A DNA stretch of 64,000 bases from contig NZ_JACHIG010000002.1 in the NCBI RefSeq assembly GCF_014203095.1, positions 611,695 through 675,694 of the forward strand, written 5' to 3'. Numbering within the stretch: position 1 is the stretch's first letter; every line of letters starts with the position of its first letter. The DNA is from Prosthecobacter vanneervenii. GTDB lineage: Bacteria > Verrucomicrobiota > Verrucomicrobiia > Verrucomicrobiales > Verrucomicrobiaceae. Shown in pieces: positions 55,357-64,000 of this stretch. The notes under the pieces were generated by a model that worked only from the letters and a program-made list of their open reading frames with translations, did not search any database and was not told where the DNA came from. A program made the position numbers and the translations under genes.

Positions 55357-56784
55357 TCAGCCTGGAAGGATCAGCATGGCCTTGGCACCTGCTGTGCCTT
55401 CGCGATTGGTTAGCTCCACGCTGCCACCATGCAGCTGCGCCACCTCTTTCACAAAGCAGAGCCCCAGGCCGGTGCTCTTCTTGCCGCTGTCCGGACGCGG
55501 CAGCGAGTAAAAGCGCTCAAACACACGCTCGCGCGCATAGTCAGGAATGCCCGGCCCGCAGTCCTCGATTTCAATCGTCACCTTGGAATCAAAGCGGTAG
55601 CCTCGTGCGATGATCACGCTGTCCTTGGGCGCAAAGTCGATGGCATTTTGCAGCAGATTGCCAACGGCCAGCTCCAGCAGCCAGGGGTCCCCTTTGATCA
55701 TGAGGTCTGCAGCCATGTCACGTTCCAGCCGCACCTCCTTGGCCTGTGCGATCAGCGCTAGATGATCCCAGGCACAATCAAACACCGCAGCCAGATTCAC
55801 CATCTCATGAGTCTCCAGCTTTTTCTGCTTCTCCAGCGCGGCCAGGTGTAGCAGGCGCTCCAGCAGATCGCGCAGACGGGCGGCCTCAGTGCGGATGTTT
55901 TGCAGAAAGCGCGCACGCTTGGGCTCCGGCACATCGCCCTGCAAAATCTCGCCCGCGCCCAGGATGGCTGCCACGGGGCTCTTCAGCTCATGCGTGAGGC
56001 TCTGAACATAGTGCTCCACATATTCACGCCCCTCCAGAGCATCACGCATGTCTTCCAGCGCACGGGCCAGCGTCTTCATTTGATGCCCCGGCATGTGCGG
56101 CAGCGATGAGCGCTCTCCCCGGCTCACCGCGAGCGCATGTTGCGTCAGCTGTTCCAGGGGCCGCGTGGCCCAGCGTGCCGCCAGGTAGATGCCCAGCAGC
56201 ATCAGCAGCACCGTGGTGATCACTGACCACTTCAGCCAGCGCTCCGTTTCCCACACAAAGGCCAGCACTCCGCGCTGCGGCTTGGCCACGCTCAGCATGC
56301 CGATGATTTTGCCCTCATGTCTGATCGGCGCGCCCACATACATCACGATGGAAAGAGGATCGTAGTCACTCACACGGCTGGATCGTGCCCCATACTGCCC
56401 TGTCAGCGTCAGGTTCACATCGCGATGGTTCGAGATAGCACCCGGTTTTTCAATGCCTGCCGAATCAAATAGCACCCGCCCCTGCGCATCGGTCACATAC
56501 ACCTGCATGTCCACCTTGGCCTTGCGCAGATTGTAGATCTGCGCATTCAGCTGGCGCTGCTGTGCGGCGCGCACCGCCTTTTCCACCGCCTGCGGCTTCA
56601 GCACACCATCCTCCGCATCAGCAGCAATGATCTCGGCGAGGATGTTGGCCACATCCACCATCGGCTCCTCGATGGCCTCAAAGTACTGCCGCTCCACACG
56701 ATGGATGAGCTGCGTGGAAAGCAGCAGCAGCCCCACCGTCGTCACCACGGCAAAGCCCAGCATAAAGCGCGCAGTCAGGCTCAT
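55357..56784 (-). CDS. creC: Sensor histidine kinase CreC-like
   Basis: A 475-residue membrane sensor. TM1 is about residues 8-26 and TM2 about 185-205, enclosing a 160-residue periplasmic sensor domain (with VYVTDAQGRVLFDSAG, a PAS-like cap). A HAMP segment (about 206-255, RPLEQLTQHALAVSRGE) follows, then HisKA LTHELKSPVAA with His265. The HATPase has NLLQNAIDFAPK, EDCGPGIPDYAR and STGLGLCFVKEV. The architecture and the short linkage to creB and a CreD-like gene match the cre locus, which responds to metabolic or cell-wall stress. It follows creB by 3 nt. Confidence 0.88.
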   Translation of the reverse strand: MSLTARFMLGFAVVTTVGLLLLSTQLIHRVERQYFEAIEEPMVDVANILAEIIAADAEDGVLKPQAVEKAVRAAQQRQLNAQIYNLRKAKVDMQVYVTDAQGRVLFDSAGIEKPGAISNHRDVNLTLTGQYGARSSRVSDYDPLSIVMYVGAPIRHEGKIIGMLSVAKPQRGVLAFVWETERWLKWSVITTVLLMLLGIYLAARWATRPLEQLTQHALAVSRGERSSLPHMPGHQMKTLARALEDMRDALEGREYVEHYVQSLTHELKSPVAAILGAGEILQGDVPEPKRARFLQNIRTEAARLRDLLERLLHLAALEKQKKLETHEMVNLAAVFDCAWDHLALIAQAKEVRLERDMAADLMIKGDPWLLELAVGNLLQNAIDFAPKDSVIIARGYRFDSKVTIEIEDCGPGIPDYARERVFERFYSLPRPDSGKKSTGLGLCFVKEVAQLHGGSVELTNREGTAGAKAMLILPG

Positions 56785-57588: not shown

Positions 57589-58773
57589 TCAGGCCAACTT
57601 CGGGGAGACTTCCCCCAGCCTCTGGCTCCAGTCCACCTTGGCCGTCAGCGCCATCAGCACAGCCAGCGTCACGACACCACCCAGCGTGAGCGTCAGACCC
57701 GTGAGTCCCTTGAAGAAAAAGCTGTAGCTGAAGAGCACCATGTAGGAGACCTGCGCCGCCACCCCCACACGAAAGAGAAACTCCCCAGCCGCCGCACGCA
57801 GATACCCGCACACCAGCAGCAGCGAAACAGTAGCCGCGAGCACAAAGCTCAGATGCACCGGCATCAGATCCAGCATGTAGGAAAACAGCAGAGGAAAGGC
57901 AAAGAAGCCTGCTGCGAGAAAGAAGTAGTTCACAGGATGCAGCGATACCCCGCGCGAGGTGGCCGTGATGATGACCACCACAAAAAACATCAGCAGCGAG
58001 AGCGGCGAATAACGGGAGATCTGCGCCGCCACCGGTCCGGCATTAAGTTCGCGCGGCATCTCCATGCCGATGCCAGGCGCGGAGATGGCGTCTTCATATT
58101 TCCACACCAGCTCCATGCCCTTCTCTGTCGGCCTGCGATCCGTTGGCGAGCTGACCGGAAAATTCACATCCGTGAAATCCGTGTTCATGGTCAGCGTAAA
58201 GTCACGGATGCGGCTGGCATCTGAAAAGGCATAATCCCAGACATCCATGCCACGGCATTCATAGCTCAGCTCCACCGGAATGCTCTCTCCCGGAGCCAGT
58301 TGCACGCTGTCGGTCATGGCCCCCTCCAGCGGTGCAGCCACAGACCGACGTGCGGCAGTCCCTTCCCCCAGGGTAAAGCGGATTTTGTCCAGCAGCGTCT
58401 TTCCAGAGGGCAGATCAAAGCCGATGTGCAGTGTCTGCGTGATGGCCGTGGTATTGGTAAAGGTGTAGGCCCCGGCAAACTTCACGCCGTAGGTGCGCTG
58501 CCATAGCAGGCCCATCTTCACCGGCTGATACGCCAGCTGCACTTTCACATCACTCTTAGCTGGCTGGAGCACCATGCTGGTGCCGCTGGATGAGGTGTAT
58601 CTCGCCTGTGGATGTTTTTGCACCAGCCTCGGCCCCCAGCGTCCGCTCACGGTGTCTCCGGTTTCATAGCTCACATGCAAGGTGCGCTGGCTCACGACTG
58701 CTCCTAGCAGCCACCAGGCGATGGTGGTGCAGACAAAGATGACGGCGATGACGATAAGATGACTGTATTTCAT
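57589..58773 (-). CDS. creD: CreD-like inner-membrane protein
   Basis: A 394-residue inner-membrane protein. There is an N-terminal TM helix (about 6-26), a large beta-rich periplasmic domain (about 30-270) and a C-terminal bundle of about six helices (from SPLSLLMFFVVVIITATS to LTLTLGGVVTLAVLMALTAKVDW). The SLHPVNYFFLAAGFFAFPLLFSYMLDLMPVHLSFVLAATVSLLLVCGYL portion follows the CreD pattern. E. coli CreD is 450 residues; this form is a bit shorter. In E. coli creD is the strongest target of CreB. Here it lies upstream of creB and downstream of an unknown exported-protein gene on the same strand. Confidence 0.83.
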   Translation of the reverse strand: MKYSHLIVIAVIFVCTTIAWWLLGAVVSQRTLHVSYETGDTVSGRWGPRLVQKHPQARYTSSSGTSMVLQPAKSDVKVQLAYQPVKMGLLWQRTYGVKFAGAYTFTNTTAITQTLHIGFDLPSGKTLLDKIRFTLGEGTAARRSVAAPLEGAMTDSVQLAPGESIPVELSYECRGMDVWDYAFSDASRIRDFTLTMNTDFTDVNFPVSSPTDRRPTEKGMELVWKYEDAISAPGIGMEMPRELNAGPVAAQISRYSPLSLLMFFVVVIITATSRGVSLHPVNYFFLAAGFFAFPLLFSYMLDLMPVHLSFVLAATVSLLLVCGYLRAAAGEFLFRVGVAAQVSYMVLFSYSFFFKGLTGLTLTLGGVVTLAVLMALTAKVDWSQRLGEVSPKLA

Positions 58774-58806: not shown

Positions 58807-59958
58807 TCAGTTGCTGCTGCGTTTGCGGTAGGTGATGCGGGCCTGTGGCTGTTGATCGCGGCAGAGCGATTTGCGCAGATGCAGTCCGGTAGCGGTGGTC
58901 TTCTCAGAGACAGGGTCCACGTTGCCGCTAAAGCTCAGCTCGTAGGCCGTGGGCAGTTGCACATTCCAGTCGATCTGCTTCGCAAAGAGAGGCGTCTGTG
59001 GCAGAGCCAGCTCCAGCTCTCCCTCCGCAGTCTGCAGCGGCGGCAGCATGGCGGTGAAGGAAAACTTCACCTCAGACTCCGCGCCATCCGTGGCCGGATC
59101 ATCCAGCGGTATCTCCAGCCGCACGGCATCCTTCACCACCGGGCGCACAGGCTCGCCGTTCACATGGCATTGCAGCAGCTTCGCAGACTCGGGCAGCTTC
59201 AGTTCCAGCCGCGTGGTGTGATCATGCCGCACCAGCACCGCCCCCTCCGTCAGCACAGAGCCATCCCGCACCACCTCCGTGTTGTAGGTGGCTTCGGAGA
59301 TGATCGCATCATCCGTGCCGCTCGCAGCAGCAGGTTGCACCGGCTTGCGGCTGTCCTCGATGCTCAGCGTCACTTCGCCTCCTTGGGATGGCAGCGCCAC
59401 TTTTCCCGGAGCAGAGAGGCTCAGCGTGTTGGCCCCCTGCTGTAAGCGCATGTTTTTGCCATCCGGCAGCTCATTAAAAGTCAGCGCTGCTATCGGTGCA
59501 GGTGCCAGGTGCAGCACGGTCCCCTGCCCCGGTGCAGCCAGCGCAAAGGACAGCTTCACCTGCTGCGCCCCCGCCTTGTCCGTGATCAGGCAGATGTGTC
59601 CATCAGCCACCACCAGTCGCGCATCCTTTGGCTCCACCGCCGTCGCCCCCATCGTGGCACCCGCAAGGGGAATCGCATGCCAGCCACCGTCAAAGTTTTC
59701 CACCTGCATCTCAGCGGTCAGAGCTCCCGCCTTGGCATTGAGGTCATATAGCGCCGAGAGCAGTGCGGCCGTGATGGGTGGCGGCGGTGGCTTGGGCGGT
59801 TCTGGCGTCTCCTTGGGCAGCGTGGCCGCCACCAGACGCTTCAGCTCGCCGTAGGTGATGCGCACCTCGCTCTCATCGAGCGTGGCGCTGGTGACGGGCC
59901 GTGGGGTTTGCGCCAGCAGTGCGCCGGCGGACATCAGGAGGATGAGGAGTGCTTTCAT
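58807..59958 (-). CDS. Exported beta-rich protein in the cre-like operon
   Basis: A 383-residue protein with a signal peptide (KALLILLMSAGALLAQT, cleavage near residue 17) and a mostly beta-strand mature part. A Pro-rich stretch (PEPPKPPPPP) lies near residues 52-61. No family recognised; the strands (DARLVVADGHICLITDKAGAQQVKLSFALAAPGQGTVLHLAP; LELKLPESAKLLQCHVNGEPVRP) suggest one or two Ig-like domains. It is the first gene of the minus-strand cre-like cluster, 33 nt ahead of creD, has a good GAGGAG ribosome site, and is preceded by four TTCAY boxes at 59982-60019. Confidence 0.72.
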   Translation of the reverse strand: MKALLILLMSAGALLAQTPRPVTSATLDESEVRITYGELKRLVAATLPKETPEPPKPPPPPITAALLSALYDLNAKAGALTAEMQVENFDGGWHAIPLAGATMGATAVEPKDARLVVADGHICLITDKAGAQQVKLSFALAAPGQGTVLHLAPAPIAALTFNELPDGKNMRLQQGANTLSLSAPGKVALPSQGGEVTLSIEDSRKPVQPAAASGTDDAIISEATYNTEVVRDGSVLTEGAVLVRHDHTTRLELKLPESAKLLQCHVNGEPVRPVVKDAVRLEIPLDDPATDGAESEVKFSFTAMLPPLQTAEGELELALPQTPLFAKQIDWNVQLPTAYELSFSGNVDPVSEKTTATGLHLRKSLCRDQQPQARITYRKRSSN

Positions 59959-59981
59959 CGCTCCTCATCTTCAAAAGCGGC

Positions 59982-60019
59982 GTGAAACCTTGATGAACCG
60001 GAGATGAAATGATGATGAA
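59982..60019 (-). promoter_or_regulatory. Four 11-bp-spaced TTCAY boxes, candidate CreB operator
   Basis: On the minus strand TTCAT (60019-60015), TTCAT (60008-60004), TTCAT (59997-59993) and TTCAC (59986-59982) are each separated by exactly six bases, giving an 11-bp period. The cre tag of E. coli and the blr/cre tag of Aeromonas are TTCAC-N6-TTCAC, the same spacing. The array ends 24 nt upstream of the start codon of the exported protein gene that begins the cluster. Confidence 0.7.
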
Positions 60020-60041: not shown

Positions 60042-60740
60042 TCACAGCCCCGCATGGCAGCAGCTCGGAATCGCATCACTGCCAAAGTCCAGCGTGCCGC
60101 GCAGGCGCCAGGCCATGATCAGCGCGGCGGTGAAGGCGAGCGTGCGCTGCAGCTTGCGCAGCGTCTGCGGTTGGATCCTGCCGCTGATGGCATGCAGTTG
60201 TGTCTGCGCTATCCACAGCAGCGGCAGCGTGCCCAGACCAAAGGCAAAGGCAAACTCCGCGCCTTTGAAGGCAGAGCCATTCGCCATCGCCAGCGCAAAC
60301 ATCATATACAGCGGGCCGCAGGGCAGCAGCGGCGTGGCAAAGCCCAGCAGCCCCGCGCGCATGGCGCTGTGCATGCGAAAGGCCAGCGTCTGAATGCGGC
60401 GCACGCCCTCGCGCAAGAACTGCGGCTTGGGCAGGCAGGTCTCCAGCCCGAGGCCCACAATCGCAAAGGCGATCACCATCAGCCATGGCAGCACGATGCC
60501 TGCGCCATGCTGGAAAAACTTCAGCGGCATCACCCCCACCGTGCCAGCAATGGCCCCCACCAGCGCATACGCCACCAGCCTGCCGCCGTGGTAGAGCGCC
60601 GTGTCCCGCATAAAGCTGGACGCCCCCGGCTTGGACGACACCGCCCATGAGCATGAGAGCGGCCCGCACATGCCCACACAGTGCACACTCGTGACGAGCC
60701 CCGCCAGAAAGGCGGCTGCGCTGGTATCAATGGACTGCAT
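60042..60740 (-). CDS. SafE/TauE-like membrane protein in the cbb3 locus
   Basis: A 232-residue polytopic protein with about six helices and a HCVGMCGP motif (about residues 20-27), typical of the sulfite-exporter/urease-accessory-like family found in cbb3 maturation clusters, where it is linked to copper supply. GFATPLLPCGPLYMMFALAMANG is the second conserved half. The C terminus ends SCCHAGL, with extra Cys/His. It overlaps the 51-residue gene by 14 nt and is the last gene of the operon. Direction of metal or sulfite transport cannot be inferred. Confidence 0.8.
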   Translation of the reverse strand: MQSIDTSAAAFLAGLVTSVHCVGMCGPLSCSWAVSSKPGASSFMRDTALYHGGRLVAYALVGAIAGTVGVMPLKFFQHGAGIVLPWLMVIAFAIVGLGLETCLPKPQFLREGVRRIQTLAFRMHSAMRAGLLGFATPLLPCGPLYMMFALAMANGSAFKGAEFAFAFGLGTLPLLWIAQTQLHAISGRIQPQTLRKLQRTLAFTAALIMAWRLRGTLDFGSDAIPSCCHAGL

Positions 60741-60882
60741 GAGCGGAGCGGGTGACGAGCGGCACCTCCGGCGGCGCGTTTTTCACTGCCAGTGTGATGA
60801 AATAAACCCACCAGGCCACAAAGCCGGTGAAGACCACGGCCACGAGGATCCAAGGGCGCGATTTGAGGCTTTTGGGCATCAT
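60727..60882 (-). CDS. 51-residue single-span membrane peptide in the cbb3 operon
   Basis: A short gene read from two adjacent ATGs (60882 and 60879): 51 residues with one transmembrane helix (PWILVAVVFTGFVAWWVYFI) and a polar C-terminal tail. It lies in the position of ccoH (fixH) between ccoG and the SafE-like gene, but is much shorter than CcoH (about 150 residues). It starts 14 nt after the ccoG stop codon and overlaps the next gene by 14 nt. It may be a reduced CcoH or an unrelated small subunit. Confidence 0.65.
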   Translation of the reverse strand: MMPKSLKSRPWILVAVVFTGFVAWWVYFITLAVKNAPPEVPLVTRSAHAVH

Positions 60883-60896
60883 GGCTTTGTCAGGGG

Positions 60897-62330
60897 TTAG
60901 TGGATGAAATCTTTGGCGTTGAGCTTGGCGGCGGGCACGGCCTGTGGGTCGGGTCCCAGATACTCCATCACGCGAGTCTCGCTGGAGTCTCCACGCGTGG
61001 TGTCCACCACCTTGATGGTAAACTTGAAGCGCTTTTGATACTCCGCCTGCGGCATGGTCAGCACCAGTGTTTTCTGATCTTCCTGCATGGGCCCCAGCTC
61101 TATCGTCTGGTCCATGCCGATGACGCTCAGCGACTTTGGCACCTCGCCCATCAGCTCCATCTTGTAGGTGGAGGTGGCATTGCGCTTGTTGATGATGCGG
61201 AGCTGGAACTGATTGCGGATGACGCCGTTGTCCACATAGAAGGATGCGCCACCCATGCGCACCACACTGGCACGCAGCGGAGAAATGCGGGAGACCGCCG
61301 CGCCAAAACCTGAGATCCACACCAGCAGGATGAAAGTGTAGAAGATCGTGCGCGGACGGATGAACTTGGTCTTGCTGCCGTTCAGCCCCTTGTAGGAGTC
61401 GTAGCGCACCAGCCCGGTTGGACGCTTGAGCTTGTGCATGATGTCATCACACGCATCCACACAGGCAGCACAGCCGATGCACTCCAACTGCAGGCCATTG
61501 CGGATGTCGATGCCCGTCGGGCACACCTGCACGCAACGGCGGCAGTCCACGCAGTCTCCCGCAGGCTTTTCCACCGTGCCTTTGCCACGTGGTTCGCCAC
61601 GCTTCTTGTCGTAGCCGATCACCACGGAGTTATCATCCGTCAGCGCTGACTGGAGACGACCGTAGGGGCAGAGGATGATGCAGAACTGCTCGCGGAACCA
61701 GCTGAAGGAGAAATAAAGCGCGCCAGTGAGAAAGACCACCACGCCAAAAGCCTTGGCATGATGCGTCGGCGATTCATGCATCATCTCATACAGCGCCCGG
61801 ATCGAGACAAAATAGCTCAGAAAGATGTGAGCGATTGCCGCAGAGATCAGGATGAAGAGCGTGTGCTTCACCACCCGCTTGGTGATTTTGGAGGCGGTCC
61901 AAGGTGCGTCCTCCAACTGACGGCGGGCGGTTCCGTCTCCGTCGATCCAGCGCTCCACCCGTCGATAGAGCTGCTCCATGAAGACGGTGTAGGGACACGT
62001 CCACCCGCACCACACGCGGCCAAACAGAGAGGTGATGTAGAAGAGGCTGAACGCCAGCCCCGTCACCAAAAAGAATCCAATCCAGAGATCCTGCGTGGCC
62101 AGGATGAGCCCAAAGAAGTGAAAGCGCCGCTCCTGCACGTCCAAAAAGACGGCCGGAAACCCGTTTACCGGAATCCACGGCAGCGCGATATAGATGACCA
62201 GCAGCACCAAGGCCGCGACACGCCTCCACCGGGTGAATGGACCCTGAACATCAGACGGATGGACGAATTTTCGTGAACCGTCGGCATGAATGGTGGAGAG
62301 CGAGTCGAGAGTGGGCGCGTTGGTCTTCAT
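60897..62330 (-). CDS. ccoG: Cytochrome c oxidase accessory protein CcoG (FixG-like)
   Basis: A 477-residue membrane protein with five or so helices, the CGWTCPYTVFMEQLYRRVE segment and two ferredoxin-type 4Fe-4S clusters (DCVDCRRCVQVCPTG and ECIGCAACVDACD). The C-terminal FixG-like Ig domain (about 370-477) is present. In cbb3 assembly CcoG reduces copper so it can be loaded into the binuclear site. The ATG at 62330 is one base from the ccoP stop; an upstream in-frame ATG overlaps ccoP. It sits between ccoP and a 51-residue peptide gene. Confidence 0.94.
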   Translation of the reverse strand: MKTNAPTLDSLSTIHADGSRKFVHPSDVQGPFTRWRRVAALVLLVIYIALPWIPVNGFPAVFLDVQERRFHFFGLILATQDLWIGFFLVTGLAFSLFYITSLFGRVWCGWTCPYTVFMEQLYRRVERWIDGDGTARRQLEDAPWTASKITKRVVKHTLFILISAAIAHIFLSYFVSIRALYEMMHESPTHHAKAFGVVVFLTGALYFSFSWFREQFCIILCPYGRLQSALTDDNSVVIGYDKKRGEPRGKGTVEKPAGDCVDCRRCVQVCPTGIDIRNGLQLECIGCAACVDACDDIMHKLKRPTGLVRYDSYKGLNGSKTKFIRPRTIFYTFILLVWISGFGAAVSRISPLRASVVRMGGASFYVDNGVIRNQFQLRIINKRNATSTYKMELMGEVPKSLSVIGMDQTIELGPMQEDQKTLVLTMPQAEYQKRFKFTIKVVDTTRGDSSETRVMEYLGPDPQAVPAAKLNAKDFIH

Positions 62331-62331
62331 C

Positions 62332-62997
62332 TTATTTGCCTGCTGCAGGCGGAGTGGCTGACACGGCGGCTGCGGCAGGTGCAGCGGCGGCGGCACCAGC
62401 TTTCAGCGGTGAATCGGCGGCAAGTGTCACGGGTTCACCTTTCTTGTGCTTGCTGAGCACGAATGCAACGACTTCCACCACACGATTGAGTCCGAGCTGC
62501 GGCTCCCATGCAGGCATTCCTTTAGTGATGTCTGGCGCACCCTTGCGCACGATGCCAAGGATCTGCAGCGGGTTGCCGCCATGCTTCCATTCAGTGTCAT
62601 TGAGCGGCAGGCCGGGCAGCTTCACGGTGCCCAGATGTGCGGAAAGGTCAGGCGCATGGCAGGCCACGCAGGTGGTGCCAAAGGTGGCCGCACCGGCGCT
62701 CACCACTTTCTCATCCTGAGACATGGCCCAGAGCTTCTCATCGCTGAGCTGCTCCAGCTCCTTGAGCTGCGCTGCTTTGATGGCGGCCATCTGCTTGTCC
62801 ACCTGTTCCGGGCCGGACTCGCCCAGGTGCAGCTGATAGTAGGCCACCCAGGCGATGACGAACCAGACGATGGTGATGTACCAGGTGAAGAGCCACCAGT
62901 TGGGCAGCTTCTGATCGTACTCCTGAATACCGTCGTAAACGTGGTCACGCAGGACGGGACCGTTGTCGGTGCTTTTGTTGGGAGATGATGGATTCAT
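62332..62997 (-). CDS. ccoP: cbb3 oxidase subunit CcoP, single-heme form
   Basis: A 221-residue membrane-anchored cytochrome c. The N-terminal helix (about 36-55, NWWLFTWYITIVWFVIAWVAYY) matches CcoP, followed by one cytochrome c domain with heme site C110-C113-H114 (CVACH) and candidate axial Met in TKGMPAWE. Proteobacterial CcoP (about 300 residues) has two hemes; only one CxxCH is present here. The C-terminal 30 residues are Ala/Pro-rich and possibly flexible. It lies between ccoQ (34-nt gap) and ccoG (1-nt gap). Confidence 0.9.
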   Translation of the reverse strand: MNPSSPNKSTDNGPVLRDHVYDGIQEYDQKLPNWWLFTWYITIVWFVIAWVAYYQLHLGESGPEQVDKQMAAIKAAQLKELEQLSDEKLWAMSQDEKVVSAGAATFGTTCVACHAPDLSAHLGTVKLPGLPLNDTEWKHGGNPLQILGIVRKGAPDITKGMPAWEPQLGLNRVVEVVAFVLSKHKKGEPVTLAADSPLKAGAAAAAPAAAAVSATPPAAGK

Positions 62998-63030
62998 GAC
63001 GAAAACGTGTGTGGAGAGTTAATTAGGCTT

Positions 63031-63186
63031 TCAGTCATCCAGCGGCAGATGGGAGAGCTGGTCGGCGCTCTCCTTGCGCAGCTTGATGGCGCGAATGACG
63101 AAGAGTAGGAACACGGCTGCGGTCACGCCAAAGGCGAGATAGGGTACCCAGTCGAGCGCAGAGTCGTAGATGATGCGTTTGTACAT
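63031..63186 (-). CDS. ccoQ: cbb3 oxidase small subunit CcoQ
   Basis: A 51-residue peptide, too short to be noticed by length alone but placed exactly between ccoO and ccoP. It has one transmembrane helix (WVPYLAFGVTAAVFLLFVI) followed by a basic then acidic tail (RAIKLRKESADQLSHLPLDD). The layout fits CcoQ, which stabilises the cbb3 complex. The ATG at 63186 starts 22 nt after the ccoO stop codon. Confidence 0.8.
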   Translation of the reverse strand: MYKRIIYDSALDWVPYLAFGVTAAVFLLFVIRAIKLRKESADQLSHLPLDD

Positions 63187-63208
63187 ATGATGCTGCGGGT
63201 AGAGGGTT

Positions 63209-64000
63209 TTACTTGGTCACGGCGGAGGTGCGATAGCCGTCCGGAATGCCGGGTTTCAGCGGGAAGGGCACGCCTTCCGGCTTGGCCAGCGGCTTTTGCT
63301 CAGGATCAACGGCATCGTATTTTCCGAGCTTCTGCAGGTAGGCGATCAGGGCCACGATCTTGCTGTCAGGCATCGCTCCGGCACGGCTCTGTGCCTCCAG
63401 CTCCTGAACGATCTTGATGCCCTGCTCCACGGCCTTGGTCTTCACCTCGGTTTCGGTCATGGCAGGATAAGGCACCCCCAGCTGAGTCAGCACACCGACC
63501 TTCTTCCACAGCGTGCCTTGGTCAAACTTCTCCGTGAAGAGGTGCGGGTAGGCGGGCATGTTGGACCCCACTGAGATGGCGCGCGGATCTTTCATGTGGT
63601 CGTAGTGCCAGCTGTGCGGATATTTGCCACCTTCACGGGCCAGGTCCGGACCGGTGCGCTTGGAGCCCCACTGGTAGGGATGGTCATAAATGCTCTCTCC
63701 TAGGCGGCTGTAGTCGCCGTAGCGCAGCACGTCCGGCAGCATGGTGCGGATCATCTGGGAGTGGCAGTTGTAGCAGCCTTCGCTCACATAGATGTCACGA
63801 CCGGCCAGTTCCAGCGGCGTATAGGGCTGCTGGATGCGGTCTTCCACATTCGTGGCACGGTTCACCAGCACGGTGGGCACGATCTGGATCAGACCACCCA
63901 GGGCCACGGCCACAAAGGTCAGCACCGTGAAGGGCAGCCAGTTGTTCAGCAGGCTGTCATACCAGGCGGACCAGCGATGGTGCCCTCCCTGAAAGCGCTT
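63209..64000 (-). CDS. ccoO: cbb3 oxidase mono-heme subunit CcoO (5' end outside the window)
   Basis: At least 264 residues to the window edge, continuing upstream without a stop codon. The visible part includes a transmembrane helix (VLTFVAVALGGLIQIVPTVL), then the heme motif CYNCH and MIRTM, HPYQWGSKRTGPDLAREGGKYPHSWHYDHMKDPRAI and SNMPAYPHLF. The upstream sequence KRFQGGHHRWSAWYDSLLNNWL does not look like a typical CcoO start, so ccoN may be fused to it; that cannot be seen here. It is the first visible gene of the cbb3 operon. Confidence 0.92.
   Translation of the reverse strand, partial: KRFQGGHHRWSAWYDSLLNNWLPFTVLTFVAVALGGLIQIVPTVLVNRATNVEDRIQQPYTPLELAGRDIYVSEGCYNCHSQMIRTMLPDVLRYGDYSRLGESIYDHPYQWGSKRTGPDLAREGGKYPHSWHYDHMKDPRAISVGSNMPAYPHLFTEKFDQGTLWKKVGVLTQLGVPYPAMTETEVKTKAVEQGIKIVQELEAQSRAGAMPDSKIVALIAYLQKLGKYDAVDPEQKPLAKPEGVPFPLKPGIPDGYRTSAVTK

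Follow-up and report, generated by a model that had tools for sequence, protein, structure and literature searches.

A conserved array of TTCAY boxes heads a Cre-like operon in Prosthecobacter vanneervenii: a probable operator for CreB

The operon and its upstream array

The window considered here is a stretch of 64,000 nucleotides from Prosthecobacter vanneervenii (contig NZ_JACHIG010000002.1, positions 611,695 to 675,694). It contains four co-directional genes, separated by gaps of 33 bp (X to creD), 105 bp (creD to creB) and 3 bp (creB to creC), which are preceded by an array of pentameric boxes (TTCAY, where Y is C or T). The features are as follows, with box positions counted from the ATG of gene X.

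60015..60019, minus strand: box 1, TTCAT, starting at -61
60004..60008, minus strand: box 2, TTCAT, starting at -50
59993..59997, minus strand: box 3, TTCAT, starting at -39
59982..59986, minus strand: box 4, TTCAC, starting at -28
59967..59972, minus strand: possible -10 element, GAAGAT, 8 nt 5' of the ATG (tentative, picked by eye)
58807..59958, minus strand: gene X, exported protein of 383 aa with two predicted beta domains (about residues 62-200 and 216-380)
57589..58773, minus strand: creD-like gene, product of 394 aa with a predicted beta ectodomain (about residues 50-240) and five long C-terminal helices
56788..57483, minus strand: creB, OmpR/PhoB-family response regulator (NF008296)
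55357..56784, minus strand: creC, sensor histidine kinase (NF008312)

Both regulators pass the corresponding NCBIfam equivalog models, CreB with 312 bits against a cut-off of 273 (NF008296) and CreC with 535 bits against 356 (NF008312). The creD-like product exceeds the gathering score of the Pfam CreD family (PF06123; 39.2 bits, cut-off 23, E 5e-10), with a match confined to residues 249-383 in the membrane half of the protein, and fails the NCBIfam CreD equivalog (NF008712; 32 bits, cut-off 275). It is thus CreD-like and, as judged by NF008712, not an equivalog of E. coli CreD. The leader of X resembles a signal peptide by eye. A first-pass annotation had described four TTCAY boxes with six-base spacers ahead of genes for an exported protein, a CreD-like protein, CreB and CreC, and the coordinates and family scans confirm this description. 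The region adjoining the operon on the same strand (60042-64000) looks like a cbb3-oxidase cluster: a family scan identifies a DsbD_2-type membrane protein at 60042-60740, and by eye the cluster also encodes cytochrome c subunits and a ferredoxin protein of ccoG type.

The minus-strand sequence of 60019-59982 is TTCAT-N6-TTCAT-N6-TTCAT-N6-TTCAC, that is, four boxes with an exact 11-bp period, and 23 nt separate the last box from the start of X (ATG at 59958). The pair TTCAY-N6-TTCAY has three matches in the window, all within the array, against an expectation of 0.26, and none of 100 shuffles reached three. The exact four-box array occurs once in the 6.66-Mb genome, upstream of X, and one three-box site is found elsewhere (G000:C6:200666-200692, L151). 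The genes flanking this second site, identified by eye as an rlmN-like gene and one for a membrane protein, both point the opposite way; the site is alike in several members of the genus and is present also in a genome negative for CreC (G046), again near an rlmN-like gene.

Shorter matches are less telling. The first-pass annotation had proposed scanning the genome for two boxes at 11-bp spacing, and this proved uninformative: 70 pairs were found at that spacing against about 98 at each of the four other spacings (464 in total for spacers of 4-8 bases), so that the two-box scan was rejected as a regulon test and an informative scan needs arrays of three or more boxes. Altered spacings, rather than the pattern read backwards, served as the main controls because the reversed pentamer is rarer. 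Among 240 genomes of the phylum, exact four-box arrays with 6-base spacers give 20 matches in 12 genomes, three of the matches being a simple repeat in one of them (G194), and those with 7-base spacers give 14 matches in seven genomes, most with repeated spacers and therefore simple repeats. The difference between 12 and seven genomes is small and on its own separates the arrays poorly from chance; the 6-base arrays, for their part, mostly have unlike spacers.

Conservation of the array and its relation to the cre/blr tag

The cre/blr tag of the regulators CreB and BlrA is TTCAC-N6-TTCAC (PMC4689548, PMC3660660). The sequence TTCACcgtcacTTCAC upstream of E. coli K-12 creD is this published tag, and the form of the tag given in the first-pass annotation is accordingly borne out by both the literature and the E. 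coli promoter. A possible third box at E. coli creD (TTCAA) is 10 rather than 11 bases further on and is not claimed. The window array has the defining features of the tag, namely TTCAC boxes spaced by 6 bases ahead of creD or its operon, although strictly only one of its four boxes reads TTCAC. The likeness to E. coli CreBC and Aeromonas BlrAB extends to equivalog regulators (for E. coli, by NCBIfam), the same box, the 11-bp period and the creD target. There are also differences: the arrays described here comprise two to five boxes (four in 16/20 members of the genus) and include TTCAT as well as TTCAC, X heads the operon whereas the E. coli cluster is without X, and creBC follow creD.

For comparison at the genus level, 24 of 30 X loci were used, six (L055-L059 and L061) being left out as partial matches. 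Sixteen of the 20 orthologues from the genus, the window genome included, have four boxes at -61/-50/-39/-28, three have three in-phase boxes (L048, L049, L051), and one retains a single exact box with decayed neighbours (L050). Three relatives from another genus (L052-L054) have three boxes at -61/-50/-39, and the available sequence of the 24th (L060) lacks the upstream part.

A wider set of 80 loci came from a CreD-profile scan of public genomes. Spacings were counted in the 160 bp that precede the head of the operon, with starts placed by hand, for the window and 52 of these loci (53 in all). A spacing of 11 accounts for 104 TTCAY pairs in 47/53 loci and its harmonic of 22 for 66 pairs, and any other spacing between 5 and 30 for at most four pairs over the whole set; outside the genus, 30/35 loci have a pair at spacing 11. 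No exact pair was found within the 160 bp in six loci: L228, L239, L240, L256, L267 (Nitrospiraceae) and L285, where an array lies farther upstream, about 170 bp from the start. The remaining 28 loci were left out of the count (upstream end off the contig, partial match, or start not settable); 14 of them have a run of at least two boxes (on the other strand in L286 and L289) and 14 have none. Beyond Verrucomicrobia, arrays are found at X-creD or creD loci of Planctomycetota (L269), Lentisphaerae (L271) and Gammaproteobacteria (L281, L287), immediately 5' of creD in Spirochaetes (L280), and in Hydrogenedentota (L283, L285). Neither the array nor, as judged by tblastn, X is present at the loci from Coriobacteriia (L279, L282) and Bacillota (L268). 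The genomes of the family survey below (G handles) and records L211-L290 share organisms and are therefore not independent samples.

The array is real and is conserved in relatives. Conservation in relatives was a check proposed in the first-pass annotation, which took its absence upstream of orthologous clusters as a refutation; the genus (16/20) and the wider loci (47/53 with spacing 11) display it. The array is best read as an enlarged form of the cre/blr tag that has been kept over several phyla.

Co-occurrence of arrays, CreC, CreD and X

In a survey of 59 genomes of the family, CreC scored over its cut-off in 37 and below it in 22. Every CreC-positive genome has a three-box match (160 matches, overlaps counted, in 234 Mb), as against seven of the 22 CreC-negative genomes (12 matches in 116 Mb). 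The contrast holds within the genus, with 65 matches in 21 CreC-positive genomes and eight in 18 CreC-negative ones, in a test that ignores the tree. X, CreD and CreC occur together in 34/59 genomes, or 34 of the 37 CreC-positive ones, and all three are missing from 21 (X being scored as present at a best E of 1.1e-15 or lower). The four remaining genomes have CreC alone (G009, G052), CreC and CreD with an array directly before creD (G006), or X and CreD (G022, only 76% complete and one of the seven CreC-negative genomes with arrays). X therefore nearly always accompanies CreD in the family, and this co-inheritance, together with the conserved promoters, supports the earlier proposal that X would be a member of a cre regulon.

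Arrays do occur in other regulatory settings. In two CreC-negative genomes (G034, G047) they precede genes beside another kinase. In five records, from three Spartobacteria and two other Verrucomicrobia (L246, L248, L250, L252, L275), the array and X-creD are preceded by a divergent kinase (28-30% identity), accompanied in four of them (all except L248) by a divergent response regulator (47-49%), which looks like an exchange of regulators around a retained box. The arrangement beside another kinase is seen in L166, L168 and L169 (G047, G009 and G034), where TTCAT three-box arrays lie 23-26 bp before a gene whose small product (about 150 aa) is exported. This gene directly follows that of another CreC-like kinase, which at 157-161 bits is below the CreC cut-off, and the arrangement is thus present in the CreC-negative G034 and G047; perhaps it is a paralogous system using the same box. 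In a sub-group of the genus (L147-L149, that is G040, G030 and G044; L225, L226, L228), creC is away from X-creD, on another contig or outside the flank.

Promoter geometry and proposed feedback

PhoB-type regulators bind 11-bp direct repeats when they activate from pho boxes. The window array resembles a pho box in that an OmpR/PhoB-family regulator would face head-to-tail 11-bp repeats, the last of them apparently near -35, and differs from it in half-site sequence and in regulon. The distance from the last box (TTCAA allowed) to the start codon was compared in 34 Verrucomicrobia rows (14 from the genus, 20 from elsewhere) and in a third group of nine, comprising eight loci and E. coli; this group covers other phyla and also L276, a record titled Verrucomicrobia whose start was set five bases past the ATG, and the starts of L221 and L285 are doubtful. 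The distance is 22-25 nt in 33/34 Verrucomicrobia rows and 35 nt in the other, whereas it is 43-74 nt in 8/9 rows of the third group (61 in E. coli). The 11-bp tandem repeats and the near-fixed 22-25 nt fit a PhoB-type activator operator, and from this distance we infer probable activation from a -35-like position, together with the possible -10 element GAAGAT. By eye, a hexamer resembling a -10 element precedes the start codon by about 8-9 nt in some Verrucomicrobia rows. A Shine-Dalgarno-like tetramer is present in the last 20 nt in 12/34 Verrucomicrobia rows (2/14 in the genus, 10/20 elsewhere) as against 9/9 in the third group, and the mRNA might conceivably be leaderless.

The first-pass annotation had also suggested feedback control. 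This gains support from the position of creBC downstream of the array in the same run of genes, and from three near relatives in which creD and creB are farther apart (L212, L222, L262) and a second four-box array precedes creB, so that CreBC would probably govern their own synthesis.

Structure and distribution of X and CreD

No Pfam or NCBIfam family matches X or eight of its relatives at cut-off. An end-to-end alignment (hhalign E 4e-71) joins the genus-type protein (383 aa) to a longer type from other Verrucomicrobia, which has about 525-590 aa (15 sequences aligned) and an extra middle part. The longer type in turn aligns over 507 columns (E 4e-31) with seven proteins encoded before creD in distant records, six of them from other phyla and one from L276. 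By these profile alignments, X is a widespread, unclassified neighbour of CreD.

Searches of the PDB by sequence returned nothing better than E 0.48 for X and no convincing match for CreD. The AlphaFold2 model of X (mean pLDDT 86, pTM 0.46) has two beta domains, which in this predicted arrangement together match ribophorin I/Ost1 (6s7o_E; Z 14.9, 291 residues); the rmsd of 14.4 indicates that the angle between the domains differs. The C-terminal domain of the model matches the N-domain of an M1 aminopeptidase (1z1w; Z 13.3, rmsd 3.6, 149 residues). X has about 10% identity to these proteins and, in the model, neither the catalytic M1 domain nor the C-terminal membrane helix, and likeness of fold does not establish function. 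For the modelled CreD ectodomain the matches are Legionella lpg2210 (4g2a; Z 15.1, rmsd 2.9 over 185 residues), lumenal domain 2 of Ost1 (6ezn; Z 10.9, rmsd 3.8) and a heavy chain of inter-alpha-inhibitor (6fpz; Z 9.8, rmsd 3.6 over 163 residues); the top Foldseek rows for it are mostly ligand-gated channels at rmsd 14-20. X and the CreD profile have no sequence similarity (probability 0.4%). On these structural matches, X and CreD look like members of one fold class, shared with the heavy chains that bear VIT domains. The link to VIT/VWA proteins of the inter-alpha-trypsin heavy-chain type thus comes from the CreD ectodomain match to 6fpz and from VIT/VWA genes with arrays in several genera, X itself lacking a VWA domain and any match to Pfam VIT.

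The array as a probable operator for CreB

CreD serves to report the activation of CreBC, and its own role is little known (PMC4689548), though it has been suggested to matter for the recycling of undecaprenyl phosphate (PMC12152626, citing others). CreBC has been tied to damage of the cell wall in published studies: loss of creD harms the envelope in Stenotrophomonas (PMC4689548), and in E. coli colicin M induces creD, cbrA, cbrB and cbrC (PMC3599342). On the sequence evidence the array is probably a switch site for CreB. Specifically, the reading that we favour, with a probability of about 0.82, is that CreB binds it as the operator through which a Cre operon for envelope stress regulates itself. 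The array, the genes, their conservation and their co-inheritance are observed, and from them we infer binding by CreB, activation, a single transcript, the nature of the signal and the role of X. CreC would sense a putative envelope or cell-wall signal and phosphorylate CreB, and phosphorylated CreB would fill the four head-to-tail half-sites, probably as two dimers, in the manner of PhoB-type regulators. With the last box where a -35 element would be expected, bound CreB would therefore recruit RNA polymerase and increase transcription of X-creD-creB-creC, and exported X would work with CreD in the periplasm in protecting the envelope.

The identity of the binding protein deserves scrutiny, since another OmpR/PhoB-family regulator might bind the array as a true operator, alone or with CreB. 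Thirteen further regulators in the genome match CreB over most of its length, and E. coli CreB shares 11/16 recognition-helix positions with window CreB and likewise with two of these paralogues (L295, L299), so that the helix does not single out window CreB within its own genome; arrays also persist in 7/22 CreC-negative genomes and in the five records with divergent regulators. Such an arrangement is nevertheless unlikely given that array counts fall sharply without CreC, in the genus too, that TTCAC-N6-TTCAC is the published CreB/BlrA tag (PMC4689548, PMC3660660), and that window CreB, scanned here alone of these regulators, exceeds the cut-off of NF008296.

The direction of control is a separate matter. 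In Stenotrophomonas maltophilia, creBC exert negative control over the creD promoter (PMC4689548), and activation is for that reason not certain here. CreB that binds the array and represses or fine-tunes the operon is, however, a distinctly unlikely alternative, as activated CreBC raises creD expression in E. coli and P. aeruginosa (PMC4689548) and the near-fixed distance of the last box from the start codon suggests a PhoB-type activator site. Least probable by far is an array that arose by chance, or a simple tandem repeat, with no role. Simple TTCAY repeats do exist, four-box arrays are scarcely commoner with 6-base than with 7-base spacers, and pairs at spacing 11 are not enriched in the genome; but the spacers vary within and between arrays, and boxes and positions alike have been retained across more than one phylum.

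Other genes headed by arrays

If CreB does use these arrays, they may mark further targets. Fifty-nine three-box sites were viewed, chosen among the matches listed (60 regions, L200 being without a three-box array; G012 is not part of the set). By eye, many lie within about 70 bp before the start of a secreted- or membrane-looking protein, and some fall within reading frames or lack an evident gene downstream. Genes in G103, G137, G145 and G245 were listed irrespective of CreC status. Pfam identifies VIT/VWA proteins downstream of arrays in G001 and G014 and, with four-box arrays, in G103, G137 and G145, and a VIT domain in G037; by eye, VIT/VWA-like proteins are also array-headed in G002, G006 and G013. 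Other Pfam assignments among array-headed products are VanZ-like proteins (G006, G009), a transglycosylase/transpeptidase penicillin-binding protein (PBP; G009), an outer-membrane barrel (G018), MipA (G245) and CreD (G006 and, in full length, G145). Nine of the 26 proteins scanned matched no Pfam family at E 0.001. Several of the candidate targets (VIT/VWA, PBP, VanZ-like, MipA, barrel) point to the envelope, and others, a Nudix protein (G013), an alpha/beta hydrolase (G040) and a calcineurin-like phosphoesterase (G009), do not obviously do so. The gene set is a lead to a possible cre regulon.

Taken further, these leads allow a more speculative proposal, which we hold to be rather doubtful as a whole: that in PVC bacteria and several other phyla CreB drives an envelope module built on one beta-sandwich fold (X in two or more copies, the CreD ectodomain and VIT/VWA proteins), in which X would be an obligate partner of CreD and a ribophorin-I-like scaffold for lipid-linked cell-wall precursors or damaged envelope, with the number of boxes in the tandem arrays tuning the response. 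The position of X directly before creD, under the same operator in most loci viewed, offers a way in to the role of CreD. What the analysis adds is the enlarged cre tag across phyla, X with its predicted ribophorin-I/M1-N-like fold, and the scan for at least three boxes; since the tag is kept over several phyla, cre regulons could be predictable from arrays of at least three boxes. In one genome (G145; L334, L327), a gene for full-length CreD (PF06123, E 3e-129) has its own four-box array and lies 4 kb from a VIT/VWA gene that has another.
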